Below, one piece after another: positions 1-48,159 of a stretch of 64,000 nucleotides of DNA. The first letter of the stretch is position 1, and the number at the start of each line of letters is the position of its first letter. The stretch is from Kyrpidia spormannii (lineage in GTDB: Bacteria > Bacillota > Bacilli > Kyrpidiales > Kyrpidiaceae), in NCBI RefSeq assembly GCF_002804065.1, contig NZ_CP024955.1, positions 2,852,001 to 2,916,000 on the forward strand, in the 5' to 3' direction. The notes beneath the pieces are model-generated. The model had not been told where the DNA came from. It was given only the letters and a program-made list of their open reading frames with translations, and ran no database searches. The translations under genes were made by a program, and so were the position numbers.

Positions 1-626
1 GCAATGGTGTTTTCCGTTGCTCCCGCCTTGGCGAGATTGAGCTGCGCCTGCGCCTGCTCAAGGGCGCCTTTCGTCTGGGCGACGGCCAACTCGGCCTGAT
101 CCAGGGTCGCTTTGGACGCCGCCCCGGCATCATTGAGATTCTTCGTGCGATTGTAATTTTCCTGGGCATTCGCATAGGCCGCATGGGCTTGTTCCACCGC
201 CGCCTGGAGCCGCTGCAACTCCTCCTGCCGGCTGCCCGCCTTGGTGTCCGCCAGTTTCGCCTGGGCGGCAGCCAGTCCCGCCTGGGCCTGCTGCAACCCG
301 GCCTGGGCCTGGTTCACCTGGGCTTGATAATCGGAGCTGTCCAGCTCGACCAGCACTTGTCCTTTATGTACCCGGGTACCTTCTTTGACGTGTACGGCGG
401 TGACCCGCGCGCCAAGTTTCGACGACACCTTCACTTCGTCGGCCGCCGCGATCTTGCCTGTCACCGTCTGGCCCCCGCCTGCCACCGTGAACACCTGCAC
501 CTCCGGCGTCCCCGGCTGGGACAAGGTCGCCGCCGATCCCGGCAGGGAGCAACCGGACGCCAGGAAGAGCACGGCGGACGAGGCAGCCAACCACATACCT
601 ACCTGTTTGACCGGCCAATGAATCAC
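1..626 (-). CDS. HlyD-family efflux adaptor lipoprotein (5' part; continues past window start)
   Basis: Membrane-fusion adaptor of an efflux pump. 208 codons are visible; the C-terminal part lies before base 1. The GTG start at 626 overlaps the stop of the upstream adaptor gene (GTGA) and has an AAGGAGG ribosome site about 10 bases upstream. The N-terminus has a hydrophobic stretch ending in a lipobox (LASGC), so it is probably a lipoprotein. A biotinyl-lipoyl-like segment follows (KVSSKLGARVTAVHVKEGT), then a long Ala/Gln-rich coiled coil (QAQAGLQQAQAGL...), the normal hairpin of HlyD/AcrA-type adaptors. It is the last visible gene of the efflux module. The family is clear; the substrate is unknown. 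Confidence 0.85.
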   Translation of the reverse strand, partial: MIHWPVKQVGMWLAASSAVLFLASGCSLPGSAATLSQPGTPEVQVFTVAGGGQTVTGKIAAADEVKVSSKLGARVTAVHVKEGTRVHKGQVLVELDSSDYQAQVNQAQAGLQQAQAGLAAAQAKLADTKAGSRQEELQRLQAAVEQAHAAYANAQENYNRTKNLNDAGAASKATLDQAELAVAQTKGALEQAQAQLNLAKAGATENTI

Positions 627-24091: not shown

Positions 24092-24634
24092 TCAAAACGC
24101 CGGCTCAATCAACCCGTAGTTTCCGTCTTTGCGCCGGTATACCACGTTCACTTCGTCCGTGTCCGCATTGGCGAAGACGAAAAAGTCGTGCCCTAACAGA
24201 TCCATCTGGAGAATGGCTTCTTCCACCGGCATGGGCTTGACCGGAAACCGCTTCACCCGGACCACTTCCCCGGCGATCTCCCGCTGGCTCTCCTCGGGCG
24301 GCTCCACCTCCGCCGTCAGCGTACGGATCCCCGCCTGCCGGAACCGTTTATTGATCTTAGACTTATGGCGTTCCGCCTGTGAGACCAGTTTGTCGACGAC
24401 GAGATCCAAGGAACCGTACATATCCCCAGACTTTTCTTCGGCACGGAACACGATACCTCCCAGGGTCATCGTCACCTCCACTTTGTGAAGGCCCCGTTTC
24501 ACCGATAAGGTGACGTACACATCCTGGTCGGCCGGCGCGTCGAAGTACTTCTCTAAGCGCCCCACCTTACGTACCGCGTACTCGCGAAGGGCTTCTGTCA
24601 CAGCCAAATTATCTCCGCGCACGTGGATTCTCAT
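24092..24634 (-). CDS. hpf: Ribosome hibernation promoting factor, long form
   Basis: Dimerises 70S ribosomes into inactive 100S particles in stationary phase. 180 residues, the long form. The N-terminal S30AE domain has MRIHVRGDNLAVTEALREYA, YVTLSVKRGLHKVEVTM and RAEEKSGDMYGSLDLVVDKL. The C-terminal dimerisation domain has RVKRFPVKPMPVEEAILQMD and LLGHDFFVFANADTDEVNVV. The ATG at 24634 follows GGGAGGGG. Single gene upstream of secA. Confidence 0.96.
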   Translation of the reverse strand: MRIHVRGDNLAVTEALREYAVRKVGRLEKYFDAPADQDVYVTLSVKRGLHKVEVTMTLGGIVFRAEEKSGDMYGSLDLVVDKLVSQAERHKSKINKRFRQAGIRTLTAEVEPPEESQREIAGEVVRVKRFPVKPMPVEEAILQMDLLGHDFFVFANADTDEVNVVYRRKDGNYGLIEPAF

Positions 24635-24731
24635 GGGGACACCCCTCCCTTTGGTCTCTATATGAAATATTCCCTCAGTCTGCGTAAATTCCTGCTGAAT
24701 CCCCAAGGGAACTATGGGGATTTTTCGTGAC

Positions 24732-24769
24732 AAAAGAAAAAGGGCCGGGCCACAGGCGGACACCGGCTC
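24732..24769 (-). terminator. Terminator after the cold-shock gene
   Basis: Minus-strand stem GCCGG...CCGGC with a 14-base loop, followed by CCTTTTTCTTTTG. About 45 bases past the csp stop. Confidence 0.6.
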
Positions 24770-24815
24770 CCATTCCTTGCGTCGATGTATCAGAGAGACA
24801 ACGAACACCCCTGGG

Positions 24816-25019
24816 TCATAGCCCCATCGGCACCACGTTGGCCGCCTGAGGACCCCGAGCCCCTTGAACGATGTCGAATTCCACCAATTGTCCCTCGGAC
24901 AGCGTGCGGAATCCCTGGGATTGAATGGCCGAATAATGAACGAACACGTCTTCCCCGTCCTCCCGGGAAATAAACCCGTACCCCTTGTCCGGGTTGAACC
25001 ATTTGACTCGTCCTTGCAT
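24816..25019 (-). CDS. Cold-shock protein (CspA family)
   Basis: 67-residue single OB-fold RNA/DNA chaperone. RNP1 is [10 protein letters not shown] and RNP2 VFVHYSAI, after the canonical [11 protein letters not shown] start. The ATG at 25019 follows GGAAGGAAGG. A leader of roughly 75 bases or more before the start is consistent with thermo-responsive csp mRNAs, but no cold box was identified. Confidence 0.96.
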
Positions 25020-25187
25020 GGATTCCTTCCTTCCCCTCGGGTAATTGCGCGGCCACCCCCAGGCGTCCGGGGACGGCTGTGCGCTACCCGTAGTGTACGC
25101 CAAACACATCCAAATCAATACCGCCAAGGGGCCGGTGGGCACATCCCCTTGACCCCAAGGGTGAAACCGCGGCCGGGGCGCCCTGCG

Positions 25188-25910
25188 TCAAAGCACCTTG
25201 CTGAGAAATGCCCGGGTTCTCTCGGACTGCGGGGCCCCGAACAACTGAGCGGGATCCCCTTCCTCCATGATGATCCCCTCGTCCATAAACAACACCCGGT
25301 CGCTCACCTCCCGGGCAAAACCCATTTCGTGAGTGACCACGATCATTGTCATGCCCTCCTTGGCCAGATCCTTCATCACGGCAAGCACCTCGCCCACCAT
25401 TTCCGGGTCCAACGCGGACGTCGGCTCGTCAAACAGCATCACCTTCGGCTTCATCGCCAGGGCCCGGGCGATGGCCACCCGCTGCTGTTGCCCGCCGGAT
25501 AATTGTTCCGGGTAGGCGTCCGCCTTGTCTGATAACCCAACTTTCGCCAGCAGGGCCCGGGCTTGGTCCATGGCCTCCTCCCGGGGGACCTTTCTCACCT
25601 TCATCGGGGCGAGGATGATATTTTCCAGAGCCGTCATATGCGGGAAGAGGTTGAACCGCTGGAACACCATCCCCACTTCCCGGCGCACAGCATTGATGTC
25701 ACACTTAGGATCGGACACCCGGATGCCGTCGATCACCACTTCCCCGGAAGTCACCGTCTCCAGGCCATTTAAACAGCGCAGAAATGTGCTCTTCCCCGAG
25801 CCGGAGGGGCCAATGACGCAGACCACCTCCTGCTCGCGGACGTCGCAGTTGACCCCTTTGAGCACTTCGAGATCCCCGAAACGCTTGTGCAGATCCCGGA
25901 CGTGGATCAC
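25188..25910 (-). CDS. Polar amino-acid ABC transporter ATP-binding protein (GlnQ/HisP type)
   Basis: ATPase of a PAAT-family importer, 240 residues. Walker [11 protein letters not shown]-loop [18 protein letters not shown], signature LSGGQQQR, Walker [18 protein letters not shown]-loop VVTHEMGFA. The GTG at 25910 overlaps the permease stop as GTGA and is preceded by GAGGAGG about 11 bases upstream; the frame extends further only inside the permease gene. It forms an operon with the permease and binding protein upstream. Confidence 0.95.
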
Positions 25911-26575
25911 CCCTGCCCGTACCTCCTCTCCAGATAGGCCACCACCTGCTGCAGAACCAAGGTCAGGACCAGATACACAAAGGCCAAGGTCAAAAAGGGC
26001 TCCCAAGGCGACAGGATCCGCCCGAACATCAGGTTCATCTGGGTGGCGATCTCGCCCCCGGCGATCACCGCCAGAAGGGATGAATCCTTGAGAAGGGCGA
26101 TGGCTTCATTCCCGAGAGGCGGCAGCATGCGGCGAAACGCTTGGGGCAGAATCACGTACCGCATCGCCTGGCCCATCCGCAGCCCCAAAGACCGGGCCGC
26201 CTCCATCTGCCCCCGGTCGATAGACTGGATCCCCGCCCGAAAAATCTCCGCCACATAAGCCGCGGAATTCAGCAATAACGCGATGGTGCCCGAGATCTGC
26301 GCGTCCAGAGCCCGCCCGCCGTTAAACTGCGGGATCACGGCAAAATGCAGCAGAAGGATTTGCACAAAAAGGGGCGTGCCCCGGAAAAATGTGATATACG
26401 CCAAGGCGGGCCACCGCCACCACCAGCCCCGCCCCAGCCGCATCAAGCCGAGAATCAGACCGAGCAACGTGCCGGCCAGGACAGCGATCACCGTGACCTC
26501 GATGGTCACCAGAGTACCTTGGAGAATTAAAGGCCAATAGTCCCGAATGACTTCCCAGCGAAAATGAACCCCCAC
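25907..26575 (-). CDS. Polar amino-acid ABC transporter permease (HisM/GlnP type)
   Basis: 222 residues, about five membrane helices. [23 protein letters not shown] is the N-terminal family segment, and [29 protein letters not shown] is the EAA loop that contacts the ATPase. The GTG start at 26575 has GAGGAGG seven bases before it. Only one permease gene is present, so it probably works as a homodimer. Amino-acid specificity is not readable. Confidence 0.94.
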
Positions 26576-26650
26576 CGGGTTCCCTCCTCGTTTGCGCGAT
26601 CACAGCCGGTCCCCCGACCCGCCTTCCCGAGCGCGATACCCCCACACACG

Positions 26651-26685
26651 AAATGGGCACGGAACCGCACCGAGGTTCCATGCCC
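26651..26685 (-). terminator. Hairpin between binding-protein and permease genes
   Basis: Twelve-base-pair stem (GGGCATGGAACC / GGTTCCGTGCCC, one wobble) with a seven-base loop, followed by ATTTC on the minus strand. It probably acts as a partial terminator or mRNA stabiliser, giving more binding protein than permease. Confidence 0.6.
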
Positions 26686-26716
26686 ACCGCCGGCCCCCTC
26701 GAACCCGAGCCGCGCT

Positions 26717-27544
26717 TTATTCCGCCGGGGGAGCCGATCCGAAATATTTTTTGTAAATGGTATCATAGGTGCCATCGCTCTTCACTTTGGCGAGGCCCTC
26801 ATTGATCTTCTCCAAGAGTGCCGTGTTCCCTTTCTTAACGGCGATGCCGTAGTATTCCTTAGGGAACTTGGGATCGGTGTAATGCTCGAATCCTTTGGAG
26901 GAATTCTGACGGATATAGTCGAGCACCACCCCGTTATCGGCCACCACCGCATCGACCGCTTTGTTTCTCAGATCCTCCAAGGCAAGGGGCGTCGTGTCAT
27001 AACGCTTGATATTCGGGTCTGTCTTGCCCAGAAAATCTGTGACAATCTCATCCCCGGTGGTCCCGATCTGTACCCCCACTTTCTTGCCCTTCAGATCTTG
27101 AAGGGTCCGGATCGGCGAACCCGGCGGCACGACGATCATCTGTTGCGCCTGAAAATACGGATTGGAGAAGTCCATGGACTGTTTGCGCTCATCGGTAATT
27201 GTGATAGCAGAAATCAAAATATCCCGTTGGCCAATGGACAGGGCCTGAAAGATGCCCTTCCACGGGGTGTTTTCAAACTTCACCTGAAAACCCGCCGCCT
27301 TCGCCACCGCATTCAGTAAGTCGATGTCGAATCCTTCAATCTGATTGGTCTGGGGATTCACCGACTCAAAGGGCGCGTAAGCCGCGTCGGTGCCCACCAC
27401 ATAAACTTGACTGTTATTGTTGGTCCCCCCGCCCGTCGATGACGCCCCGGAAGGTGCGCTGGACGACGCGCCGCACCCCGCCAGGGCTACCCCCAGTGCC
27501 AAAGCGGCGACCCCGGCCCAACCTTTGCGGACCCAATCTCTCAC
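26717..27544 (-). CDS. Amino-acid ABC transporter substrate-binding lipoprotein
   Basis: Solute receptor of the PAAT importer, 275 residues. The GTG at 27544 follows AAGGGGG. The signal peptide (VRKGWAGVAALALGVALAGC) ends in the lipobox LAGC, then a Ser/Gly/Asn linker. The SBP_bac_3 core has YAPFESVNPQTNQIEGFDID, WKGIFQALSIGQRDI, ITDERKQSMDFSNPYF and GTTGDEIVTDFLG. The ligand is likely a polar or branched amino acid. First gene of the three-gene operon. Confidence 0.95.
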   Translation of the reverse strand: MRDWVRKGWAGVAALALGVALAGCGASSSAPSGASSTGGGTNNNSQVYVVGTDAAYAPFESVNPQTNQIEGFDIDLLNAVAKAAGFQVKFENTPWKGIFQALSIGQRDILISAITITDERKQSMDFSNPYFQAQQMIVVPPGSPIRTLQDLKGKKVGVQIGTTGDEIVTDFLGKTDPNIKRYDTTPLALEDLRNKAVDAVVADNGVVLDYIRQNSSKGFEHYTDPKFPKEYYGIAVKKGNTALLEKINEGLAKVKSDGTYDTIYKKYFGSAPPAE

Positions 27545-27651
27545 CTGTATGATCCCCCTTTGTGTGTTCTGCGGCTCCCGATCTCGCCTGCGAAAGGTTT
27601 GTCCACCCGGTCTGCAGCAAAACGGCAATGCCGCACTTCTCTGTCAATATG

Positions 27652-27762: not shown

Positions 27763-28764
27763 TCATATCCGGGCGTGGCACAAAGCCGCCCGCAGCCGGC
27801 CGATATCCTCTTCCCGCTTTCTCAGCAGCCTCTGGGCATCCTCCAACTCGATCCGGGTAAACCGGAGTCGCCCGCCCGGGCGGACCTGGGCCACCACCGG
27901 CAGATCCACCGTCGCCACCTGGGCGATTTTCGGATAGCCGCCCATCGTCTGATGGTCCGCCAACAGGAGAATCGGCCGGCCGTCGGGGGGCACCTGGAGG
28001 GTGCCCGTGGTGACCGCCTCGGAGATCATCTCGATGGGCCGGGCCAGCGCCAATTTTGTCCCATCCAAACGGTACCCCATGCGGTCGGACTGGGGCAGAA
28101 CGACAAAATCCGCTTCAAACACCTTTCGCCGGGCTTCTTCGTCGAAAGCCTCAAACTGCGGTCCGGGCATGGCCCTGACCCGGGGATTGGGTTCGTACTT
28201 CGGCAAAAGTCGAGAATCCACCCCCCAGGGAGCCGCGACAAAGCTTTTCCCCCGGAGCCGGGATGACCACATGGCCATGACAGTCCGGGCCCATTCCCCC
28301 GGTGGCCCGAGGGGCAGATCGTCCCCCGCTTGAAGCGCCCGGCCTTTATACCCTCCGATCCCCGCCCGCAAATAGGTACTTGCGCTGCCCATCACCTGGG
28401 GAACGGCGATTCCCCCCGCCACCCCCAGGTACATCCGGCACCCCGAGGTCTCGGCGACAAAATCGAGCACAGCCCCGGGGTGCACCAGCACCGGCCGCCA
28501 AAGAGGAACCGGGATGCCATCGACCCGGGGCGCCAGGCCCGCACCGGCGACGGCGATCAAGGAGAGTTCCTCGAATCTGAGCCGCGGCCCCACCAGGGTG
28601 ATCTCCAGAGCCGGAGCCCCCTCCGGATTGCCCACCAGAAGATTGGCGACCCGCAGGGAAAAACCGTCCATGGCTCCGCTCACGATGACCCCGTATTTCT
28701 GATACCCATATCTCCCGCCATCCTGGACCGTGGTCAAAAGACCGGGATTGATGACCCGAATCAT
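27763..28764 (-). CDS. pxpC: 5-oxoprolinase subunit PxpC (KipA/biotin-dependent carboxyltransferase-like)
   Basis: Subunit of ATP-dependent 5-oxoprolinase PxpABC, which opens the spontaneously formed oxoproline ring to glutamate. In Bacillus subtilis the homologue was first described as KipA. 333 residues. TTVQDGGRYGYQKYGVIVSGAMD and RVANLLVGNPEGAPALEITL are family hallmarks; YLGVAGGI and LLADHQTMGGYPKIAQV follow. The ATG overlaps the pxpB stop by four bases. PxpA (LamB/YcsF) is not in the window. Confidence 0.92.
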   Translation of the reverse strand: MIRVINPGLLTTVQDGGRYGYQKYGVIVSGAMDGFSLRVANLLVGNPEGAPALEITLVGPRLRFEELSLIAVAGAGLAPRVDGIPVPLWRPVLVHPGAVLDFVAETSGCRMYLGVAGGIAVPQVMGSASTYLRAGIGGYKGRALQAGDDLPLGPPGEWARTVMAMWSSRLRGKSFVAAPWGVDSRLLPKYEPNPRVRAMPGPQFEAFDEEARRKVFEADFVVLPQSDRMGYRLDGTKLALARPIEMISEAVTTGTLQVPPDGRPILLLADHQTMGGYPKIAQVATVDLPVVAQVRPGGRLRFTRIELEDAQRLLRKREEDIGRLRAALCHARI

Positions 28765-29456
28765 CCCCTGTCATCCCCTTCGCCCAGGCGGTCGTACTCG
28801 TCGCGATCGATGGCGTAAAATCTCACCCGGTCCCCCGCCGCCAAAAGGCTGGGAGGATCGTCCTCGGGCCTGAACAACCGAAGGGGGGTCCTGCCGATCA
28901 ACCGCCAGCCTCCCGGCGTCTCGATGGGATACACCCCTGTCTGCCCGCCGGCGATCCCCACCGACCCCGCGGGAATGGCAAGGCGCGGCGTCGCCAGGCG
29001 GGGAGTGGCGATTCTATCGGACATCCCGCCGAGATATGGAAACCCCGGCGCAAAGCCGATGGCATACACGATATACTCCCCGGAGGTGTGAATACGGACC
29101 ACTTCCTCCGGCGTCAAATGGTTGTGAGCGGCCACATCCTCGAGGTCCGGGCCGAATTCCCCGCCGTAACACACGGGAATCTCCACCACCCGAACGCGGC
29201 GGTCCGTGGAAGCCGGGGCATCGGCCAGCCGCCGCACCAATTCGGCCTTCACTTCAGAATACGAGGCCAGGACGGGATCGTAAAAAACGGTCACCGTGGT
29301 AAAGGCGGGGACGCATTCCACCATGCCCGGGATCGGCGCGGCCTCCAAATGATCCACAAAAGCCATAATCCGGGCGTGAGTACTCGCCTCGACAGCGTCC
29401 CCGAACCGGATCAGCACCGCCGAATCTCCGACAGGGGTTACGTCCAGGTGACCCAT
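28761..29456 (-). CDS. pxpB: 5-oxoprolinase subunit PxpB (KipI family)
   Basis: Partner of PxpC, 231 residues. GDSAVLIRFGDAV, VCYGGEFGPDLEDVAAHNHLT, YAIGFAPGFPYLGGM and IPAGSVGIAGGQTGVYPIET are signature segments of the KipI/PxpB family. KipI in Bacillus subtilis also inhibits the sporulation kinase KinA, so a sporulation role cannot be excluded. A small internal duplication (ATPRL-ATPRL) precedes the IPAGS motif. It overlaps pxpC by four bases. Confidence 0.92.
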   Translation of the reverse strand: MGHLDVTPVGDSAVLIRFGDAVEASTHARIMAFVDHLEAAPIPGMVECVPAFTTVTVFYDPVLASYSEVKAELVRRLADAPASTDRRVRVVEIPVCYGGEFGPDLEDVAAHNHLTPEEVVRIHTSGEYIVYAIGFAPGFPYLGGMSDRIATPRLATPRLAIPAGSVGIAGGQTGVYPIETPGGWRLIGRTPLRLFRPEDDPPSLLAAGDRVRFYAIDRDEYDRLGEGDDRG

Positions 29457-29541: not shown

Positions 29542-29688
29542 GAGCCCACAAATTTATCCACAGCCCAAGCCACCGGCCCTCGTGATAAGAGGGAGTTATC
29601 CACACTATCCACAAGGAGAAGGTGTATAAATGCACAGATAACTCCCGTTAACCACAGTCTGTCCACAAAGATATCCACATTGCCCACA
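29542..29688 (+). other. DnaA-box cluster outside oriC
   Basis: Two perfect TTATCCACA boxes (29554-29562, 29596-29604) and several near matches, all in the same orientation: CTATCCACA (29605-29613, abutting the second), TTAACCACA (29648-29656), CTGTCCACA (29659-29667), ATATCCACA (29671-29679), and the more degenerate TTGCCCACA (29680-29688) and GAGCCCACA (29542-29550). No dnaA or dnaN is near and no A+T-rich unwinding element is obvious. It resembles the DnaA-box clusters that titrate DnaA in Bacillus subtilis. It fills the gap between pxpB and the flagellar operon's end. Confidence 0.8.
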
Positions 29689-29736
29689 AAAAAAGCCGCC
29701 ACGAGGGATCGATGATCCCCGTGCGGCCCGTTTTTT
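29688..29736. terminator. Bidirectional terminator after the late flagellar operon
   Basis: Long stem (GCCGC-CACG-GGGATC / GATCCC-CGTG-CGGC, one bulge, three-base loop) at 29695-29726. It is flanked by seven As on one side and TTTTTT on the other, so it can end transcription in both directions. It ends the minus-strand flagellar operon. Confidence 0.85.
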
Positions 29737-29814
29737 CTTTCCTGATCGGTGATCCCGGACGGCTCCCCGACACCGCGAGGTGAACCCGGCCCCTCTCGTG
29801 TCCTCCTGAAACCG

Positions 29815-30246
29815 TTATCTTCTACGGTCGAAAAACACCCCGTCCGGTGTCGCCCCACCCGAACGGTAGGTCTTTTCGACTTTGAGCGACTGTTGCAATC
29901 CGAGCAGCATATCGCCCACCTTCCCGAGAAGATTGACGAAAGTTTGCTGCAGGCGACGGTCCTGCTCCATCACGGCTTCAAACTGATCTTTAACTCGCTC
30001 GGCCGCCTCTCGGATCTCCGGATCCGCATGGTCCAACAGTGCAGCCAGGCGGAGATCCTCGGGGGAGATGACATCTCGGAGTTGTTCGAACACTCCTTTC
30101 CGGGTGTCCGACAAGGTCATCACCCGTTCCACAGCATCTTCTTGACTGGCCGTTCGCAGAATGTCTTCCCCGAGTTCTGACATCCGCTTCAAAAGTTCTT
30201 GTTGAGTATGCAAGACCGCTAATAGTCCCTCTTTGTCTAAACTCAT
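29815..30246 (-). CDS. Probable FliT-like flagellar chaperone, uncharacterised
   Basis: 143-residue, almost wholly helical protein with heptad-like segments (LAVLHTQQELLKRMSELGEDI, EAAERVKDQFEAVMEQDRRLQ). I do not recognise a named family from sequence alone. Its place directly after fliS, 13 bases downstream, is where Bacilli carry fliT, the FliD/FlhDC-binding chaperone, and the size is right. The Arg-rich C-terminus (VFFDRRR) is unusual. The flagellar role is inferred from position. Confidence 0.65.
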   Translation of the reverse strand: MSLDKEGLLAVLHTQQELLKRMSELGEDILRTASQEDAVERVMTLSDTRKGVFEQLRDVISPEDLRLAALLDHADPEIREAAERVKDQFEAVMEQDRRLQQTFVNLLGKVGDMLLGLQQSLKVEKTYRSGGATPDGVFFDRRR

Positions 30247-30259
30247 GGTCGCTTCCTCT

Positions 30260-30670
30260 CTATATGGAACCGAGTTGCTGGGCGCGGGCAGAAGCTTGTC
30301 GGAGCGCGAGAGCCGCGTCCGCCCACGCCTCGCGCAACTCCCGAACCTGTTCCAAGACTTCCTCCACCGGCACCGGATCCTTGGTAACGTTCGCCTCCAC
30401 CAAACGACGGTGATAGTAATCGTATAAAGCCGCTAAAGAATGGGAGATCTCGTAATCCATCTTTAACGTCACGGTCAGTTCCCGCAAGATATCCTGACTC
30501 CGCAAGAGAAACGCATGGGCATCCGGACGGCGCCCCTCCTCAAGAGCCCGCTTGGCCGCTTCGAGAAACTGGATCAATCCATCGTATAACATGAGCAGCA
30601 ACCGGTCTGGCGCCGCCGTCTGCACCGCCGTATTGCGATAAGCGACTGACGCCTGGTCCCTATCGGTCAT
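30260..30670 (-). CDS. fliS: Flagellin-specific export chaperone FliS
   Basis: Binds the C-terminus of flagellin in the cytoplasm and prevents its early polymerisation. 136 residues. The family core YRNTAVQTAAPDRLLLMLYDGLIQFLEAAKRAL and LRELTVTLKMDYEISHSLAALYDYYHRRLVEAN is clear. The ATG at 30670 is preferred because AAGGGG lies nine bases upstream; a GTG three codons earlier overlaps that site. Between fliD and the fliT-like gene. Confidence 0.96.
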   Translation of the reverse strand: MTDRDQASVAYRNTAVQTAAPDRLLLMLYDGLIQFLEAAKRALEEGRRPDAHAFLLRSQDILRELTVTLKMDYEISHSLAALYDYYHRRLVEANVTKDPVPVEEVLEQVRELREAWADAALALRQASARAQQLGSI

Positions 30671-30728
30671 CCGAGTCACCCCTTCACTGCTTGATCCATC
30701 GCCGTCCGTTCAATGACCAGTTATCAAA

Positions 30729-32618
30729 TTAGTGACCGGCCATCATCGATTGAAAAAATCCCGCTTGGCTGTTCAATTGCGACAAGGCCTGTTCCATGGC
30801 GGTAAACTGCTGGTAGTAATACTGACGTTTCTGGTCTAATTGCTGCTGCATCTCCGCCGCCTGGGTGTCGATCTCCCGGACCTGTTGACCGATCCAACTG
30901 TTGTCGACCAGGTCCGACGCGCTGCCCGCCTCTTGGCTGATCTGGTCGATGGCGGTATTGACCGCATTATAGAGTTTTGCGGCGATCCCGGCCCCCGGGC
31001 TGCTGGTATCCGTCACGCTCGAGGTCGGATTGGTGAACAGCCGCATCACCGCCTGGGGATCCGCCTGCACCGCCGCCCGGAGTTGATCTTCGTTCACGTG
31101 CAGTTGCCCATACTCCCACCAATCTCCCGTGGTGATGCCGATAGACGCCAAGCTGTTCAGGGTCACGGTCTGCCCGTTCACCGTGGAAGGCGCCTGTCCC
31201 TGAAGAACCGACCCGGCAATTCCCCGCAGGCTGTCGATAACATTCCCCAAAAGGGGGTCACTGGACAACATGCCACTTTTAGCCATTGTTTCCCATTTTG
31301 TAATCTGATCCTGGGTCATCTGGGACTTCTGATCGTCGGTGAGAGGCGGATAGTCGTAATTCCGTTTCTCGTGGTACAGATCGTTCATCGTCTTCATGAG
31401 GCTATTATACTTATCCACAAACCCTTCGATCGCTTTGACCACCGTATCCACATCGGTGGTGACCACCAAACTCGAAGAAACGGGGTTTCCGTTCGCGTCT
31501 TTCGCGGACACACCTTTGAGGGTCATCGTTACACCATTGTAGACCACGGTGTTGGTGGCACTGTACGACGTATAGCCATTGACGGTGTAGATGGCATCCT
31601 TCGCCGCGTTCGCACTGACACCCTGGAACCCGCCAAAGGCATTCCCGGGATCGCTGACCACCTCCACACTGATGGGCGAGTACAACGTGGGACCCGCCGC
31701 CCCACCGTTTACCGGCAAAAGTTTAAGATGCCCGGAGCCGTCATCCTGAGCCTGTACCCCCGTCACGGCGGTCTGACCGTTAATCGCAGTCACGATGTCC
31801 GAAAGAGTCTGCCCCGCCGAGAAATTGAAGGAAACTCCATTGATGCGCAAACTCGCATCTTTTGTAAGCGTCCCGATGGCGTTCACCGAGGCCACATTCC
31901 CTGCAGGATTCAGGTGAAACAGGCCCGCAAAGAGATTGTCGTTGTCCCCGCTGACGGAAATCTTCGCCCCGCTGCCCGTGGCCGTCGTTTGAAACACCAC
32001 TTTGTCCTGGACGGCATCATAAAAAGCCGTCACCCCAGTCTTGGGATCGCTGCTGATCTTGGCCAACAACGTGTTCAACGTGTCCGTGGCCGGGTCGAAG
32101 GTCACCGTCTCCCCGTTGATCGTCACTTGGTGCGGCCCCGCCCCGGGGCTCCAACCTGTAGCCGTGCTCAACTGGTTCAGGGGCGCGTTCGGATTCAGTT
32201 GCGGCTTCCCCGCCGCCGTCAAGGCCGTTGCGGACGCAACTGTCACCCCCTGGGCCAACTGGCTCACCGAAACGGAATACGAAGCGGCCGGGGACGTGGC
32301 GGCCGCCGTGGCCGTCACCACCGAAGTGTCCGAGCTGGAAACCGTTTTCGCCAAAAACGTCGACTGCAGCTTCATCGAGAACAACTCATTGGTGCGAAAA
32401 TCCAACAGCGCGCTGTTCACCTGACGGTAGTCGTCCTGTTTCCACTGCCACAGCTGCTTTTGTTGCATCAAGCGGTTCAGGGGGATACTTTCCGCCTGCA
32501 TCATGGCTTTGACCATGCTGTCCGTGTCAATCCCGGAGGCCAAACCGGCAATGTGACTGTAGTCGATGGCATTGAATCCGCTTCCGGAGTTCGTCGACCC
32601 CGTCGCCCCGAGAATCAT
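30729..32618 (-). CDS. fliD: Flagellar filament cap protein FliD (HAP2)
   Basis: Caps the filament tip and helps flagellin insertion. 629 residues, within the family's range. The N-terminal coiled-coil has GLASGIDTDSMVKAMMQAESIPLNRLMQQKQ and the cap domain ASYSVSVSQLAQGVTVASA; the central variable domains include a flagellin_IN-like repeat (DASLRINGVSFNFSAGQTL); the C-terminal FliD_C region (NVIDSLRGIAGSVLQG...LASIGITTGDWWEYGQLHVNE) ends in a coiled coil. Exported without a cleaved signal by the flagellar type III route. Confidence 0.97.
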   Translation of the reverse strand: MILGATGSTNSGSGFNAIDYSHIAGLASGIDTDSMVKAMMQAESIPLNRLMQQKQLWQWKQDDYRQVNSALLDFRTNELFSMKLQSTFLAKTVSSSDTSVVTATAAATSPAASYSVSVSQLAQGVTVASATALTAAGKPQLNPNAPLNQLSTATGWSPGAGPHQVTINGETVTFDPATDTLNTLLAKISSDPKTGVTAFYDAVQDKVVFQTTATGSGAKISVSGDNDNLFAGLFHLNPAGNVASVNAIGTLTKDASLRINGVSFNFSAGQTLSDIVTAINGQTAVTGVQAQDDGSGHLKLLPVNGGAAGPTLYSPISVEVVSDPGNAFGGFQGVSANAAKDAIYTVNGYTSYSATNTVVYNGVTMTLKGVSAKDANGNPVSSSLVVTTDVDTVVKAIEGFVDKYNSLMKTMNDLYHEKRNYDYPPLTDDQKSQMTQDQITKWETMAKSGMLSSDPLLGNVIDSLRGIAGSVLQGQAPSTVNGQTVTLNSLASIGITTGDWWEYGQLHVNEDQLRAAVQADPQAVMRLFTNPTSSVTDTSSPGAGIAAKLYNAVNTAIDQISQEAGSASDLVDNSWIGQQVREIDTQAAEMQQQLDQKRQYYYQQFTAMEQALSQLNSQAGFFQSMMAGH

Positions 32619-32629
32619 ACCTGCACCCC

Positions 32630-33022
32630 CTAAATGGTCCGATCAAAGAATACGCCCAACACCGAGCGCATCTGTTCATCCATGGCAATGAGATCCCCCG
32701 GCGGAATCTGGCGGATGACCTCGCCGGTATCGTCCCGGATCACCCGAACGATGACCTGGTGCGTGTCTTGCTGCAGTTCAAACCGCAAATGGGTCCTGGC
32801 CATCTGGGCGGCCACATTCATCCGCGCCACTGAGCGCTCCACCTGCTCCGGAGATGGCTTCCTCGGGTCCCCTTGTGTTTCGTTGCCTGTCTTCGCCGGC
32901 AACACCGGTGTCGGCGCTTCCACCCGAACCACCGGCGCCGTTTGTTCTGCCGCCGCCGCATCCACCAACTCCCGCCCCACGGGCATTCCCGTATGCAGGG
33001 GCGGCACGATGCCACCATTCAT
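32630..33022 (-). CDS. flaG: FlaG-family flagellar protein
   Basis: 130 residues. The C-terminal FlaG domain (LRFELQQDTHQVIVRVIRDDTGEVIRQIPPGDLIAMDEQM) is clear, and the N-terminal half is a polar, Ala/Pro/Glu-rich linker. FlaG influences filament length in other bacteria. First gene of the flaG-fliD-fliS-fliT-like operon, 11 bases upstream of fliD and about 60 bases below a sigma-D-type promoter. Confidence 0.9.
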   Translation of the reverse strand: MNGGIVPPLHTGMPVGRELVDAAAAEQTAPVVRVEAPTPVLPAKTGNETQGDPRKPSPEQVERSVARMNVAAQMARTHLRFELQQDTHQVIVRVIRDDTGEVIRQIPPGDLIAMDEQMRSVLGVFFDRTI

Positions 33023-38602: not shown

Positions 38603-41569
38603 TTAGATCAACTTGTAGTCTCGAAGTTTACGGTATAACGTTGTACGGGATATTCCGAGTTCCCGTGCAGTACGGCTAATGTTACCTTTGTACATCATGA
38701 GTGCACGCTCAATCTCCAACCGTTCATCCTGGGCATATTGTAGCCGTATCGATTCGACGTTACGTAAAAGACGAGCGTCCCGTTGCACAAGCTGTTCATC
38801 CCGCCTTCCCTGTACTCCGGAGTCAATAGACTCGATTTCGTCTTGCGAGAGCACGTTTGCCTGTACAGCCTGTGGCATTTTGGGCTCGAATTCCGGCGAG
38901 ATCAATTGAAACGTGTCATCCGTCCGTAAGTAATCGGGTAAGTGGTCCAATGTAATGAGGGGTTCGTTGCCTGCTACATAAAAGGCTCGTTCTAGGGCAT
39001 TACGCAACTCTCTGACATTACCTGGCCACCCGTACTGCATAAGGACTCTTGTCGCCTCCTCAGACAATGATTTCTCAGGTGTTCCCGTGGCTTCCGAGAA
39101 CTCAGTAAGAAAGTGCCTCGCGAGTTCCGGAATATCATCTTTTCGTAAACGGAGGGGTACAAGTTCTATGGTGAAGACATTGAGCCTGAAGTAAAGATCG
39201 CTTCGGAACGACCCATTGTATGCGATTTCCTGAGCTAGGCGTTTGTTTGTCGCGGAAATGATTCGTACATCAACCGGAATCGGGGTGCCGCTCCCTACTC
39301 GAACAACTTCTTTTTCTTGTAATACACGCAGTAGGATGGCTTGTTGGTCGATCGGCATATCCCCAATTTCATCCAGGAACAGTGTTCCGCCATTCGCAAG
39401 TTCGAATTTGCCTGGACGTCCCCCCCGTTTTGCCCCGGTAAATGCTCCATCCTCATAACCAAACAGCTCGGCACTGACCAAATCCCGCGGTAGACCCGCA
39501 CAGTTCACGGCAATAAACGGCTTGTTACGACGCGGGCTGGCGTTATGAATAAACCGCGCAAAAAGTTCTTTTCCAGTCCCACTCTCTCCCAAAAGTAGGA
39601 CATTGGCGTCAGCTTGTGCAGCAAGCTCCGCAAGCTGAATGTTCTTTAAAAACAATACGTTTGAACCGACGAGTTCCACCTGGTTTTTTTGAGATTTCCG
39701 GGATAAAATACGCATCTTGCGAATGAAGATATGGTACACTTCCCCTATTTTCTGGCCCTTAATCTCAAACACGTGTTGATCTCGACTGAAACGAGTCATG
39801 AATTGGTGATCTTGTACGCTGCTTAGGTAAGATCTAAGGAAAGGAAGCAGGTTTGGATCATCTGCCAACCAATCGCTGGCAAGTTGATTTTTCACGAGTA
39901 CCTCATTGTTAGCTACACTAATATATCCTTCCGGTATCGCATTTATAGCACCCACGAAAAGACGATCAACTTCCGCTTTTTTACCCTGTTCCTCGACGAT
40001 GCCAACAGCACATTCTAGCAACTGTTTCAAAGCCCTAGAAAGGGTTGTAATGGTATCAGGACTCAACGAGCAATCATCGATGAATACACCAAGCACTCCA
40101 TAGAATCGGCCGGATTTACGCTGAATGGGTATTCCTATCGTAATCCAGTCTTTCAATTCCTCTCGTTCATGTTCGCTCCCCCGAACAACAGCTTCACTTC
40201 GACCCATTAACGCCAGGGAAATTCCGGAATGACCAATTAACGCATGATTGGCCTTGATCCCAGGGCTCAAAAAGGGGGGGAGCTCGGGTGTGTCTGTTAC
40301 ATCGTGGCGAAAAACGGCTAAGGTCAAACCTTCAGCGTTAAAGATTCCAAATCGGTATGGAAAATATTTTGTCATATTTTTGATTGCATCGATCAAAGGC
40401 TTGTATTGATCCTGGGCAGTCCGGAGCACGTGAATGGGGGCACTCGCGCTGTCACTTCGCAGCAGTGCAGGATTCTCTTTTTCGTCGTTGTAAAAAGGTA
40501 TGGGCGGTATCAACCCATTTGATTCCCACACAATGTCAAATTCCCCATTGGCATTCACGCGTCCAATTCTAGACTGCAGCCACAGATGTTGGTTTTTTGG
40601 ATCTACTCGAATGCACCCCTGGGGAGCCTCGAACTCTATATCACGCAGTGCCTCACGAATCTCATCTGTATCTGTTGACCTCGCCCGACGGATCCCCTCC
40701 GCCAATAACCAAACACTATAATATGCACTTTCCATAACCGCACTTATCGTTTGCGTCCCATAGGTTTCATTGTACAGACTGCGAAACTCCGAGTTTCGTT
40801 TTGTACGGATGGATGAGAAATATGGAAATGATGTGTAATGGCCGACAGCATATTTGATACCCATTGCCTGAATCTCCGTTTCCGCAGTAATTGCGCTGGC
40901 AATCGGTATATTTAAACGAGTGCCGTAAAACTGTTGATAAAAAGCAATCACGCTCTCCCCTACGAGCGTTGAAAACACTACATTCGGTTTTACGGCCGTA
41001 ATCTCCCGAAGTATTTGCTGGAATCTTTGAGCACCTAAAGCAACATACTGCTCGCCCGCTATAGTGCCCCCGTGCAACTTCACGAGTCTACGGATATGCT
41101 TATTCGTCTCTCTGGGGTATACATAGTCAGACCCGACAAGATAAACCGATTTACCAATGTGATCAAAAATCCAAGGGATGAAAGTTTCAAGCTGCTGGTT
41201 CGGAACTGGACCACAATAATACACATAAGGGCTCAATTCTTCGCCCTCGTACAATGTGGGGTAAAAGAGCAATTTATTGTACTTTTCTAATACGGGAATA
41301 GTAAGCTTGCGACAAACTGAGGTATATAGACCAATGATCGCCGCAACATGGTGTGTATGAATCAGTTTCTCGGCCTTCGCTGCCGACAAAATAGGGTCAG
41401 AGGCGATATCCTCTGTGATGGGAATGAGCTTTCGCCCCAAGACCCCCCCATTTTCATTGATTTGGCGGATCGCCAACAGTGCGGATTGGTATTGCCCCCG
41501 TTCTGTTACGCTTGTCGTGCCCGTGAGCGAGAAAAGTAGGCCGATGTGGATGTCCTGACCGCCAGGCAC
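38603..41569 (-). CDS. One-component amide sensor/sigma-54 activator (AmiC-like domain fused to AAA+ and Fis HTH)
   Basis: 988 residues. About 8-365: AmiC-type periplasmic-binding fold without a signal peptide, with ligand-region segments GLYTSVCRKL, LFYPTLYEGEELSP and VGSDYVYPRETN, very like Pseudomonas AmiC. About 385-530: GAF-like sensor; 540-625: PAS-like segment. About 632-860: sigma-54 AAA+ with Walker A GESGTGKE (661-668), the sigma-54-contacting GAFTGA loop (708-713), Walker B LFLDEIGD and an arginine-finger region FRSDLYFRLNV. Last 25 residues: Fis-type HTH (NISRTARELGISRTTLYRKL). The GTG at 41569 is chosen because AAGGAGG lies eight bases upstream. Divergent from amiE, which has a -24/-12 promoter. 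It should sense short amides and activate the amidase genes. Confidence 0.92.
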   Translation of the reverse strand: MPGGQDIHIGLLFSLTGTTSVTERGQYQSALLAIRQINENGGVLGRKLIPITEDIASDPILSAAKAEKLIHTHHVAAIIGLYTSVCRKLTIPVLEKYNKLLFYPTLYEGEELSPYVYYCGPVPNQQLETFIPWIFDHIGKSVYLVGSDYVYPRETNKHIRRLVKLHGGTIAGEQYVALGAQRFQQILREITAVKPNVVFSTLVGESVIAFYQQFYGTRLNIPIASAITAETEIQAMGIKYAVGHYTSFPYFSSIRTKRNSEFRSLYNETYGTQTISAVMESAYYSVWLLAEGIRRARSTDTDEIREALRDIEFEAPQGCIRVDPKNQHLWLQSRIGRVNANGEFDIVWESNGLIPPIPFYNDEKENPALLRSDSASAPIHVLRTAQDQYKPLIDAIKNMTKYFPYRFGIFNAEGLTLAVFRHDVTDTPELPPFLSPGIKANHALIGHSGISLALMGRSEAVVRGSEHEREELKDWITIGIPIQRKSGRFYGVLGVFIDDCSLSPDTITTLSRALKQLLECAVGIVEEQGKKAEVDRLFVGAINAIPEGYISVANNEVLVKNQLASDWLADDPNLLPFLRSYLSSVQDHQFMTRFSRDQHVFEIKGQKIGEVYHIFIRKMRILSRKSQKNQVELVGSNVLFLKNIQLAELAAQADANVLLLGESGTGKELFARFIHNASPRRNKPFIAVNCAGLPRDLVSAELFGYEDGAFTGAKRGGRPGKFELANGGTLFLDEIGDMPIDQQAILLRVLQEKEVVRVGSGTPIPVDVRIISATNKRLAQEIAYNGSFRSDLYFRLNVFTIELVPLRLRKDDIPELARHFLTEFSEATGTPEKSLSEEATRVLMQYGWPGNVRELRNALERAFYVAGNEPLITLDHLPDYLRTDDTFQLISPEFEPKMPQAVQANVLSQDEIESIDSGVQGRRDEQLVQRDARLLRNVESIRLQYAQDERLEIERALMMYKGNISRTARELGISRTTLYRKLRDYKLI

Positions 41570-41844
41570 TGGTTCGCCCTCCTTTTCACCTGCTAGGGAC
41601 ATTATATCATTCTGTGTTCTATAGATGTCTTGCAATGTTTCCTAATGTTGCGCTTTTGCATCGGTTTGTTTATCCCTGGCGTTCGTCGTCTTAGAACACG
41701 ATTAAACAGATGAGGACATAACGATACAGACCGCAAGGGAACCAGATTCGCGGTTCGCCCTTTCTGAGCTTCCCTACCGTGCTTCCAGACGGTCGTGGTT
41801 AGCTGTACTGCTGCGTTGAGATAAATCCGTTTCTGCTCACGTAT
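41570..41844. promoter_or_regulatory. Control region between activator gene and amiE
   Basis: No coding frame is supported. It presumably holds the activator's upstream binding sites; ACCGT-N8-ACGGT near 41778-41795 is a candidate dyad. A minus-strand TATAAT (about 41596-41601) lies in front of the activator's GTG start and may be its -10 element, but without a clear -35 box. Confidence 0.4.
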
Positions 41845-41862
41845 TTGGCATGAAACCTGCAA
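41845..41862 (+). promoter_or_regulatory. Sigma-54 (-24/-12) promoter of amiE-amiB-amiS
   Basis: TTGGCATGAAACCTGCAA has GG and GC at the invariant spacing of sigma-54 promoters (TGGCAC-N5-TTGCA), with C-to-T at the sixth consensus position and T-to-C at the first position of the -12 box. It lies 59 bases upstream of the amiE start, in front of the only genes facing the sigma-54 activator. Confidence 0.8.
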
Positions 41863-41920
41863 AGAGGTTAAAAAGAGAAGTTACATTTCTAAAATATACA
41901 AATGACGGAGGGTGTTCTCA

Positions 41921-42967
41921 ATGAGACATGGGGACATTGCTAGCAGTCCAGATACTGTAGGTGTTGCCGTTGTCAACTACAAGATGCCGCGGCTCCATAC
42001 CCGGGAGCAGGTACTGGATAACGCTCGGAAGATTGCGGACATGATCGTCGGAATGAAGCAAGGCCTGCCAGGAATGGATTTGGTCGTCTTTCCCGAGTAC
42101 AGCACGATGGGCATTATGTATGACCCGGATGAAATGTTCGAAACTGCATGTACAGTCCCCGGGGAAGAAACGGAGATTTTTGGCCGGGCATGCCGTGAAG
42201 CCAACACCTGGGGAGTGTTCTCTCTAACCGGGGAACGGCATGAGGAACACCCGCGAAAAAGCCCGTACAATACGCTGGTGCTGATCAACAACAGAGGAGA
42301 AATCGTGCAAAAATATCGAAAGATACTACCTTGGGCTCCTATCGAAGGCTGGTATCCGGGGGATAAGACCTATGTCTCCGATGGACCCAAAGGACTTAAA
42401 GTTAGTCTGATCATCTGTGACGACGGAAACTATCCCGAAATTTGGCGGGATTGTGCAATGAAAGGCGCAGAATTGATTGTTCGTCCACAGGGATATATGT
42501 ATCCGGCCAAAGAACAGCAGATCATGATGGCTAAGACAATGGCATGGGCAAACAACGTTTATGTCGCTGTGGCGAACGCGACCGGATTTGACGGAGTCTA
42601 TTCCTACTTTGGTCACTCAGCAATTATTGGATTCGACGGCCGTACATTGGGCGAATGTGGCGAAGAAGAGTACGGTATCCAGTATGCGGAGCTGTCGATT
42701 TCAGCGATTCGTGACGCCCGGCAGAACTGGCAATCGCAAAATCAGCTCTTCAAATTATTACATCGCGGATATACAGGTATCTATAATTCAGGGGACGGCG
42801 ACAAAGGATTGGCAGAATGTCCGTTTGATTTTTATCGGACATGGGTGTTAGATGCAAAGAAAGCTCAAGAGAATGTAGAGAAAATTACCCGAACGGAGCT
42901 AACAACAGCATGTTGTCCAGTTGGCGGTCTGCCCTATAACGGTGCAGAACGCGAAGCGGATCGGTAG
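41921..42967 (+). CDS. amiE: Aliphatic amidase
   Basis: Nitrilase-superfamily enzyme that hydrolyses short amides (acetamide, propionamide) to the acid and ammonia. 348 residues, nearly collinear with Pseudomonas aeruginosa Ami[21 protein letters not shown] at the N-terminus. The catalytic triad is Glu59 (FPEYSTMG), Lys134 (QKYRKILPW) and Cys166 ([11 protein letters not shown]). Glutamate E142 of the family is also present ([10 protein letters not shown]). The ATG at 41921 follows GGAGGG. First gene behind the sigma-54 promoter. AmiF formamidases are related, but the N-terminus fits AmiE. Confidence 0.98.
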
Positions 42968-43072
42968 TTGATCCATGAGCGCCGCCGGGAACCAAAAGGT
43001 AAGCTTCCATCGGATCCCGGCGGCGGATCTGACCTGTATAGCAGCATCAGTTGTAAAAAGGGGATACGGTTA

Positions 43073-44185
43073 ATGCCATTCGTAAACGATATGCTCCAAA
43101 GCTTTGCCCAACAGAAAATAGCGAAAGAAGAGGAGAATACTGGACCCAACCAGTCGACCAAGTCATCGTCAGCAACGGTAGTCACCCGATTTACTTTCGA
43201 CGTCAATAAAGTGATGCAACATTTGAAAAGCCATATTGCCGGGCAACAGGAAGCACTCAATGCCATCGAGCAGATGCTACGCTTGGTAAGAGCCGATATT
43301 GCTGATCCTAGCCGTCCACTGTACATTGCACTTTTCCTAGGCCCAACCGGAGTGGGAAAAACAGAAATTGTTCGCCTCTTGGCAGAGGCACTTCATGGAA
43401 ACCGAGAAGCTTTTTGTAGAGTGGACATGAACACGCTGTCCCAAGAACACTACGCGGCGTCTTTAACGGGAGCACCGCCCGGATACGTGGGAAGTAAAGA
43501 GGGAACCACCATTCTCGACAAAGAAAAGATAGTAGGTTCCTACAGAACACCAGGTATCGTGTTATTTGATGAAATGGAGAAGGCAAGCAACACGGTTCTG
43601 CAAACCCTATTAAACGTCTTTGACAACGGGCTCATGACTGTGGCATCAGGACAAATAACGATTAATTTCCGTAACTCATTAATTTTTATGACGAGCAACA
43701 TTGGTGCCCGTGAGGTACAAGAATATGCGAGACGCAAGTCTCACTCAAAACTCCGCCACTTTCTCAGGGTTACACGACCGCTGAGTATAGAGACAACTCG
43801 GAAACTCATCCAGGAGCAACTCGAGACCCGATTGTCTCCTGAGTTTCTTAATCGTGTCGACGACATCATTACGTTCAACTGGTTGGACGAAACCGCCGTC
43901 GAGGATATTATTTTGCTCCACATCCGGCAACTGAATCAGCGTTTGCTGCATCATCGGGTCGACATCCATCTAGAGCCCTCAATGCTTGCGCACCTCGCAG
44001 AAGTCGGATTTGACCAGCGGTACGGGGCAAGATCATTAAAGCGAGCTATTCGCCGGTACGTGGAAGTCCCATTGGCTAAATATTTACTTTCTCGTAGCTG
44101 GGAATCGGAAATGCCTTCTGAAAGGGTCATTGTGGCTTGGAGGAACGGGGACACACATTTTCGGAAGGATTTGCAGAAGGAATGA
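43073..44185 (+). CDS. amiB: AmiB-like AAA+ ATPase (ClpA/ClpB C-terminal type)
   Basis: 370 residues, a single AAA+ module like the second ATPase domain of ClpB. Walker A is LGPTGVGKTE, the pore-loop region reads SLTGAPPGYVGSKEGTTILD, Walker B IVLFDEMEKAS, sensor 1 MTSNIGA, and the Arg-rich C-terminal D2-small domain GFDQRYGARSLKRAIRRYVE. AmiB of the Pseudomonas ami operon is this kind of protein; its role is unclear, perhaps a chaperone for AmiE or AmiS. The ATG at 43073 follows AAGGGG; about 105 bases separate it from amiE. Confidence 0.9.
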   Translation: MPFVNDMLQSFAQQKIAKEEENTGPNQSTKSSSATVVTRFTFDVNKVMQHLKSHIAGQQEALNAIEQMLRLVRADIADPSRPLYIALFLGPTGVGKTEIVRLLAEALHGNREAFCRVDMNTLSQEHYAASLTGAPPGYVGSKEGTTILDKEKIVGSYRTPGIVLFDEMEKASNTVLQTLLNVFDNGLMTVASGQITINFRNSLIFMTSNIGAREVQEYARRKSHSKLRHFLRVTRPLSIETTRKLIQEQLETRLSPEFLNRVDDIITFNWLDETAVEDIILLHIRQLNQRLLHHRVDIHLEPSMLAHLAEVGFDQRYGARSLKRAIRRYVEVPLAKYLLSRSWESEMPSERVIVAWRNGDTHFRKDLQKE

Positions 44186-44219
44186 TAGACTGTCGCACGC
44201 CTATGGAGGAGGTCATCGA

Positions 44220-44828
44220 ATGGCAAACGTTGGGCTTCTTTACGTTGGAGCCGTTCTGTTCGTCAATGCACTTATGCTGTTGGGCAAAATCGATTCAAAA
44301 AGTGCGGGCATTTTTAATCTTTTCGTTGGTGCACTGCAAGTATTTACGCCGGTCTACCTAATCATGACCGCCCAGAATAGCTGGGACATTTTTAGTGCCT
44401 CAGGTATTTTCTTGTTCGGGTTTACTTATCTGTATGTCGGAATATCAAATTTAACCGGCAACAACAGTTCGGGTGTCGGTTGGTATTCGCTGTGGGTCTC
44501 TATGCTCGCGATTGGCTATAGCATTGTTAATTTCTACCATTTTGGAGATATCAAGTTTGGCGTTATATGGCTAATGTGGGCGTTTCTTTGGGGTTTGTTC
44601 TTTCTATTGCTCGCGCAAAAACGCGATATCGGCCGATTTACAGGGTGGGTTACACTCATAGAGTCCTGGGCAACCTGTACGATTCCAGCGTTTTTGTCTA
44701 TGACCGGACTTTGGACCCATATAAGCGCCACGGTGGTCTGGATCGCAGTGCTCTTCGTCCTCGCGCTTTTCACCTGGGCTTGGGTGACAACAAGAGCTTC
44801 TCACGCGCCAGTTGCAAAATCGTCCTAG
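44220..44828 (+). CDS. amiS: Amide channel AmiS (AmiS/UreI family)
   Basis: 202-residue membrane protein with six hydrophobic segments (VGLLYVGAVLFVNALMLLG, IFNLFVGALQVFTPVYLIM, FLFGFTYLYVGISNL, YSLWVSMLAIGYSIVNF, FGVIWLMWAFLWGLFFLLL, VVWIAVLFVLALFTWAW), the AmiS/UreI fold that passes small amides or urea. The ATG at 44220 follows GGAGGAGG. Third gene of the ami operon. No solute-binding or ABC genes are nearby, so entry is by diffusion through this channel. Confidence 0.95.
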   Translation: MANVGLLYVGAVLFVNALMLLGKIDSKSAGIFNLFVGALQVFTPVYLIMTAQNSWDIFSASGIFLFGFTYLYVGISNLTGNNSSGVGWYSLWVSMLAIGYSIVNFYHFGDIKFGVIWLMWAFLWGLFFLLLAQKRDIGRFTGWVTLIESWATCTIPAFLSMTGLWTHISATVVWIAVLFVLALFTWAWVTTRASHAPVAKSS

Positions 44829-44931
44829 GTGATTTGCTGCAAATCAGTTCTGCGTTAGTTTGAAAAGCTAACTCAAATGACCTCACAGTCGCACATGGAT
44901 AAACCCTTTTAGTTGCATTGTGGAATCTTAT

Positions 44932-44960
44932 TTGACACATCTTTCTGCCACTGTTATTAT
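44932..44960 (+). promoter_or_regulatory. Sigma-A promoter of fmdA-fmdB
   Basis: TTGACA (44932-44937), 17-base spacer, TATTAT (44955-44960), near consensus. It is 144 bases upstream of fmdA, implying a long leader. Confidence 0.75.
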
Positions 44961-45001
44961 CAATCCAGAAGTGCGTCAAGTCAATGATTATAATTCTTAC
45001 A

Positions 45002-45019
45002 TGGCAAGGTTGCTTGCCA
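45002..45019 (+). promoter_or_regulatory. Stem-loop in the fmdA leader
   Basis: Perfect inverted repeat TGGCAAG-GTTG-CTTGCCA between the promoter and the fmdA ribosome site. It could be an operator or an RNA hairpin. A strong orphan Shine-Dalgarno sequence (AAAGGAGG, about 45026-45033) follows it without a usable start codon. Confidence 0.55.
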
Positions 45020-45103
45020 ATTAAGAAAGGAGGTGCAACTCTCGAAAAAACCTACCCGATCGAACAGATACGATTAAAGAGAACTCATTGAGGAGGGAAA
45101 AAG

Positions 45104-46276: not shown

Positions 46277-46280
46277 TCCG

Positions 46281-46550
46281 ATGCCAACCTATGCATTTAA
46301 CTGTCAAAGATGCGGACCGTTTGAGCGACAGATGGCCATGAAGGATGCCCAAGATACTTGCATTTGCCCTTTCTGTGGAGAAGTGGCACGTCGAACCTAT
46401 GGGGTCCCAAATGTCTTAAAAACGGCTGGACGATCCACCTCGGTACGTGTTGTTGAGCCACACAACGGAACGAATTCCACTGTCAATACCGAGCGGCAAC
46501 GTCAAGCAAATGGCTCCCGTCCCGGCCGTCCTTGGATGGTCGGTCATTAG
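46281..46550 (+). CDS. fmdB: FmdB-type zinc-ribbon protein
   Basis: 89 residues. The N-terminal zinc ribbon is MPTYAFNCQRCGPFE and CPFCGEVARRTYG, with four cysteines in two CxxC knuckles. FmdB was proposed as a regulatory partner of the formamidase operon in Methylophilus; the family's role is still uncertain. The tail is polar. It starts five bases after the fmdA stop, so it is cotranscribed. Confidence 0.9.
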   Translation: MPTYAFNCQRCGPFERQMAMKDAQDTCICPFCGEVARRTYGVPNVLKTAGRSTSVRVVEPHNGTNSTVNTERQRQANGSRPGRPWMVGH

Positions 46551-46559
46551 TGGCTTTCT

Positions 46560-46609
46560 GGAGCCAGTGAGGCGGATTTTTCGGCAAACTCCTTGCTGGC
46601 TCCATTTTT
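46560..46609 (+). terminator. Terminator of the fmdA-fmdB unit
   Basis: GGAGCCAG / CTGGCTCC, an eight-base perfect stem with a 28-base loop, followed by ATTTTTG. It marks the right end of the amide island; nothing gene-like is seen from here to 46836. Confidence 0.55.
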
Positions 46610-46836
46610 GGCATATCATGTAACCGCCGGGGTTCATAGGCCGAGTTCCATTCTCCAATTCTGCGTAAACCCTGGGGCCGCCCAGAGCGCACTGAACATG
46701 TTCCGCAGGTCTTGCGAATCTCCCGCAAAACGGTCATCCTATGGTATAGACGGGCGTAAGCATGCCCAAGAAGGCTCAGGCCCGACCGACGAGTCGGTGC
46801 CCGGGTCAGCCGTTTGGATGACGGGAGGCGTGGGGA

Positions 46837-47979: not shown

Positions 47980-48159
47980 GCGCCATTTTGCATCGACTCA
48001 TCGAAGGGTGTCGGTGCATCGGCAAGTGTCGGGGCTGTGGACCCGGGCGGGGGGCGTCATCAGGATGTGGGCGGCAGCAGGGCGTCGGTCCTAGAGACAA
48101 AAGCCTTGCCCAGCCATGCCCTGCCCCGGGCCAATGGCCGCCGTCGGGAAGGGGATCGA

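Follow-up and report, generated by a model that had tools for sequence, protein, structure and literature searches.

A positionally conserved DnaA-box array between the flagellar operon and hpf of Kyrpidia spormannii, a probable DnaA-trapping site outside oriC

Introduction

What is the role of a dense group of DnaA boxes that is located behind a flagellar operon, far away from dnaA? This question is raised by a locus of Kyrpidia spormannii EA-1, the chromosome of which is one contig of 3,352,175 bp. The window, i.e., the whole stretch of 64,000 nucleotides analyzed here, comprises bases 2,852,001-2,916,000 of this contig, and all coordinates below refer to the window unless the genome is mentioned. 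In Bacillus subtilis, DnaA-box clusters (DBCs) are known at gcp/ydiF, ywlC, ywcI-vpr, yqeG-sda, yydA, and trmE, where likewise several boxes are present within approximately 150 bp of intergenic DNA outside oriC, and the strong non-oriC regions tabulated for this organism hold 4-11 boxes (PMC4447404). B. subtilis cells lacking six non-oriC clusters initiate replication early; the timing recovers in part when single clusters are placed at different positions (PMC5295017; PMC13220808). An earlier note on the Kyrpidia locus had pointed to its likeness to these DnaA-titrating clusters, a comparison that is consistent with every test made here.

The array and its setting in Kyrpidia

The array extends from 29554 to 29688 and contains two perfect DnaA boxes, five boxes with at most one mismatch and eight with at most two (cumulative counts). 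Box A (TTATCCACA, 29554..29562, + strand) and box B (TTATCCACA, 29596..29604, +) are perfect, and box B is the first of an abutting pair with box C (CTATCCACA, 29605..29613, +, one mismatch; 9 bp start to start). They are followed by TTAACCACA (29648..29656, +, one mismatch) and by a degenerate triple (29659..29688, +) consisting of CTGTCCACA at 29659, ATATCCACA at 29671, and TTGCCCACA at 29680 with two, one, and two mismatches, respectively. The 12-9 spacing of this triple is that of the cross-family core described below, and its five mismatches in total are above the cut-off of the core survey. Furthermore, the alignment revealed a weak box 0 (GAGCCCACA, 29542..29550, +), of which the CCACA 12 bp ahead of box A is retained in all four family members. 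The earlier description as two perfect and several near-perfect boxes, some of them abutting, thus holds with two perfect and three one-mismatch boxes and the B/C pair, and the single direction holds for all boxes except one weak minus-strand site with two mismatches, TTATACACC at 29621..29629.

As the earlier note had stated, the array is intergenic. It lies in a region of 358 bp between a pxpB-like gene with a CT_C_D domain (28761..29456, -), which is the adjacent downstream gene in Kyrpidia only, and the flagellar operon. The pxpB-like gene is followed by a pxpC-like gene (27763-28764) and by a block of an amino-acid ABC transporter, csp, and hpf (24092..27628, -), which includes the gene for the solute-binding protein of the transporter (26717-27628, -). 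On the other side, a gene at the position of the chaperone gene fliT (29815..30246, -), the product of which is FlgN-like below the Pfam cut-off, is the final gene of the flaG-fliD-fliS operon (fliS, fliD, and flaG at 30260..33022, -). The array adjoins the hairpin at the end of this operon (29687..29737, -), as seen from the fold in EA-1 (z -2.3) and by eye in the other three family genomes. Flanked by an A run and, on the opposite side, by a T run, this hairpin is likely the terminator of the flagellar operon and possibly a bidirectional one; the consensus terminator scan missed it. An Rfam search of the window found a tRNA only. Inside fliD, a perfect and a one-mismatch box lie 33 bp apart (31411-31452), with paired TCCACA motifs as counterpart in Kyrpidia sp. 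Bu79 and Alicyclobacillaceae bacterium Bu37, which may be mere coding conservation. In another part of the window (40001-48000) the G+C content drops to 48-52% and the GC skew has no sign, which suggests a recently acquired region.

Excess over chance and other clusters in the genome

A chance origin of the array is excluded. Among 5000 dinucleotide-shuffled versions of the 358-bp gap, none had as many as five boxes (mean 0.07, maximum 2), a 400-kb sample of the EA-1 genome has at most one box (with up to one mismatch) per 150-bp stretch, and the genome-wide Poisson expectation for such a stretch is approximately 2e-4. No second cluster of this kind is present within the 64-kb window. The genome contains 30 perfect boxes, and the strong clusters around them are located at oriC (upstream of dnaA and between dnaA and dnaN), at the array, and at genome position 3,113,636-3,113,729; when close box pairs were searched for throughout the genome, the same three places emerged. 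Around the perfect boxes, the search of the genome that the earlier note had proposed yields only one other strong non-oriC cluster, besides a weaker box group at genome position 471,653. This other cluster (L025:1427-1520) comprises seven boxes with at most one mismatch in approximately 95 bp beside an alanine-dehydrogenase-like gene and is retained in K. tusciae and Bu79, while none was seen in Bu37. It is a different site from the array downstream of tsaD (gcp), which was not detected in Kyrpidia.

Relation to oriC

The dnaA gene begins at base 1 of the contig and is flanked by box clusters on both sides. The chromosome has a positive GC skew between 40 and 1400 kb and a negative one between 1600 and 3300 kb, with no switch at the array, which therefore lies inside one arm, at a distance from oriC of approximately 470 kb or 14% of the chromosome. 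The earlier claim that the cluster is far from dnaA is thereby borne out. At oriC, runs of DnaA-trio-like triplets follow the boxes; at the array both such runs and an AT-rich tract after the boxes are absent, and trio runs are also absent at the array in the three family relatives. That the array itself is oriC, the alternative that the earlier note had left standing, is ruled out by the dnaA neighborhood, the GC skew, and the missing unwinding element: the contig start harbors dnaA and the bipartite box clusters as well as the unwinding element and the skew switch.

The dnaA-dnaN half of oriC in Bacilli, which is the basal unwinding system, has the same boxes as the array, and in all four Kyrpidiaceae genomes the spacings 12 and 42/43 of the array are found there as well. 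Among 32 dnaA-dnaN gaps (L126-L155 plus L103 and L125), 29 have at least three boxes in the layout 11/12 - 42..44 - 8/9. The idea that the array copies the geometry of oriC was dropped as a general rule, because the oriC spacing occurs in only four of 14 clusters of the unselected survey (see below) and the 12-9 core is absent at oriC (0/32 loci). The likeness within the Kyrpidiaceae thus carries no weight for the mechanism.

Conservation within the family

K. tusciae, Kyrpidia sp. Bu79, and Alicyclobacillaceae bacterium Bu37 carry the array at the same place; Bu37 belongs to another genus, and there csp/hpf instead of pxpB follows the array. Within a 77-bp core of the four genomes, 20 of 27 positions in boxes are invariant compared to 12 of 50 in spacers (Fisher p 2.6e-5). 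The distances between box A and box B (42/43 bp) and between box B and box C (9 bp) are kept in all four, box B reads TTATCCACA throughout, and the position of box A is conserved in K. tusciae, Bu79 (there as CTGTCCACA), and Bu37. EA-1 and its family retain the abutting pair and have no good box 12 bp ahead of it, but box A at 42/43 bp instead. In K. tusciae approximately half of the EA-1 array is missing. No cluster was found at the Alicyclobacillus fliD loci (L092-L094, L097-L099) in the sequence examined.

Conservation across families

A pattern search of the class with the Kyrpidia-based spacing of 42-44 and 8-9 bp gave matches in 126 of 399 genomes, compared to one match for the reversed control. 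Of these arrays 98 could be placed, namely 26 in the fli/transporter-csp-hpf-secA region, 45 just downstream of tsaD (gcp), 21 at oriC, and six elsewhere, counted as stretches and not as independent genomes, as some stretches are included twice in a short and a longer version; K. tusciae belongs to the last six solely because hpf falls outside its retrieved stretch. All 26 fli-hpf arrays and all 45 tsaD arrays have a single orientation, and neither of these two groups contains an array with a DnaA-trio run of at least four. The arrays downstream of tsaD match the known B. subtilis gcp/ydiF cluster; they are found in many families, and their strand is without exception the one opposite to tsaD (L156-L170, L174-L176, L204, L213-L218, L220, and L223-L239, for the most part). 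In one genome (G025) the fli-hpf region contains a pair of distinct arrays approximately 2 kb apart (L191:5471 and L191:7437).

Since the pattern search imposes the spacing and some stretches had been chosen for their nearness to hpf, a survey blind to boxes was performed with 40 hpf-upstream regions; their genomes were selected regardless of boxes, and almost all belong to other families. Among the 39 regions that were long enough, 14 contain a cluster and 25 do not. The core box-12-box-9-box was found in 13 of the 14 clusters, and with respect to fli/hpf it always occupies the opposite strand; 13 of the 14 have the 9-bp box pair. The 12-9 core did not occur in 0.8 Mb of EA-1 background strand or in the other hpf regions. 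Altogether, the site is present in approximately 13 families (f1, f8, f12, f17, f18, f21, f22, f23, f27 without the core, f29, f30, f31, and f54), and in the eight genomes in which dnaA was located its distance from oriC is approximately 357-665 kb or 8-15% of the chromosome. The gene just downstream differs by lineage and can be pxpB, the solute-binding protein gene, the permease gene, csp, or hpf. Adjacency to the flagellar operon, on which the earlier note had remarked, is correct for Kyrpidia; across families, the transporter-csp-hpf-secA block is the more constant neighbor. In B. subtilis, none of the 20 listed DnaA-binding regions is located at fliT-hpf-secA (PMC4447404), which makes it less likely that the same locus is used there and leaves the assignment to the same kind of site unaffected.

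Proposed role of the array

From its sequence features and its conservation we consider it fairly likely that the array is a chromosomal DBC of the B. subtilis kind that titrates DnaA, and thus a conserved DnaA-trapping site that probably helps to time replication. In the short gap behind the flagellar terminator, DnaA would bind the tandem boxes, with cooperativity at the abutting pair, and DnaA bound there would be kept from oriC. Located in one arm at approximately 14% of the chromosome length from oriC, the array would be copied early after initiation; thereby its high-affinity sites would be doubled and free DnaA lowered, so that the next initiation would be delayed. Occupancy, cooperativity, and the effect on timing are what we infer for EA-1, which has a DnaA with the recognition motif GGRDHTTV, identical to that of B. 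subtilis DnaA, and also YabA. Two points speak against titration: any single cluster may be of little consequence, and 25 of the 39 hpf regions of the unselected survey are without a cluster.

The strongest competitor, which we nevertheless regard as unlikely, is a DnaA-controlled promoter element that represses or activates pxpB in Kyrpidia, or transporter/hpf genes elsewhere, in a similar way as sda, ywlC, and others are controlled in B. subtilis. Gene regulation by B. subtilis clusters is indeed known (PMC4447404), the EA-1 array occupies the stretch 98-230 bp ahead of the pxpB start, and a weak promoter-like match, TTGGCG-17-TATGGT, is kept in K. tusciae as judged by eye, whereas the promoter scan gave no match at its threshold. 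It also speaks against such an element that in several families the array is located inside the transporter operon. Control of one gene becomes less likely because array, strand, and core spacing remain constant although the neighbor is not the same in every lineage, and this is what can be expected for a role at the level of the DNA instead of a promoter. It is less probable still that the site resembles datA or DARS of E. coli and alters the nucleotide state of DnaA instead of simply holding the protein. The fixed box distances (12-9, or 42/43-9) point to DnaA assembled in an ordered complex and not to loose boxes, but datA and DARS require IHF or Fis, whereas B. subtilis is without IHF and Hda homologs (PMC13220808) and its regulators act on oligomerization (PMC5295017).

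Box turnover, as seen from the reduced array of K. tusciae, would fit boxes that have accumulated without a function or that belong to a repeat family, an explanation that we judge to be very improbable in view of the excess over chance, the conservation of boxes above that of spacers, and the recurrence in about a dozen families at the same place and on the same strand. A second or remnant origin of replication, chromosomal or derived from a plasmid, is hardly conceivable: the array shares the spacings 12 and 42/43 with the dnaA-dnaN half of oriC, but it has neither the unwinding features that follow the boxes there nor a skew switch nor adjoining replication genes, and the oriC spacing is not retained in most clusters of other families.

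Comparison with known systems and significance

The datA site of E. coli is located approximately 470 kb from oriC. Like the array, it is a non-coding multi-box site outside oriC, and it lowers initiation (PMC5295017), but it requires IHF and promotes hydrolysis of DnaA-ATP. DARS1 and DARS2 of E. coli are small sets of boxes as well, and their distances from oriC are conserved (PMC5010248). These sites serve to reactivate DnaA, together with IHF/Fis, and there is no hint of that at the array. A literature search covering open-licence papers revealed no account of the fli-hpf site. DnaA-box clusters as a kind are already known, whereas this site is newly recognized, and its positional and structural conservation is unusually clear.

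More tentatively, and with somewhat less than even confidence, the fli-hpf array can be regarded as an old element that times replication from a fixed position in many Bacilli, an ordered DnaA trap in which a third box stands 12 bp ahead of a tandem TTATCCACA-TTATCCACA pair and the strand is fixed, and lineages would use this site, the tsaD site, or both. For a role of DnaA titration outside E. coli, the evidence comes mainly from the six B. subtilis clusters. Wide conservation and the same orientation rule were also found for the known gcp/tsaD cluster. The fli-hpf array supplies a defined 30-bp core, and as a second site that keeps its position, strand, and core spacing in approximately 13 families it points to selection on the array and its place, and not on the neighboring gene.
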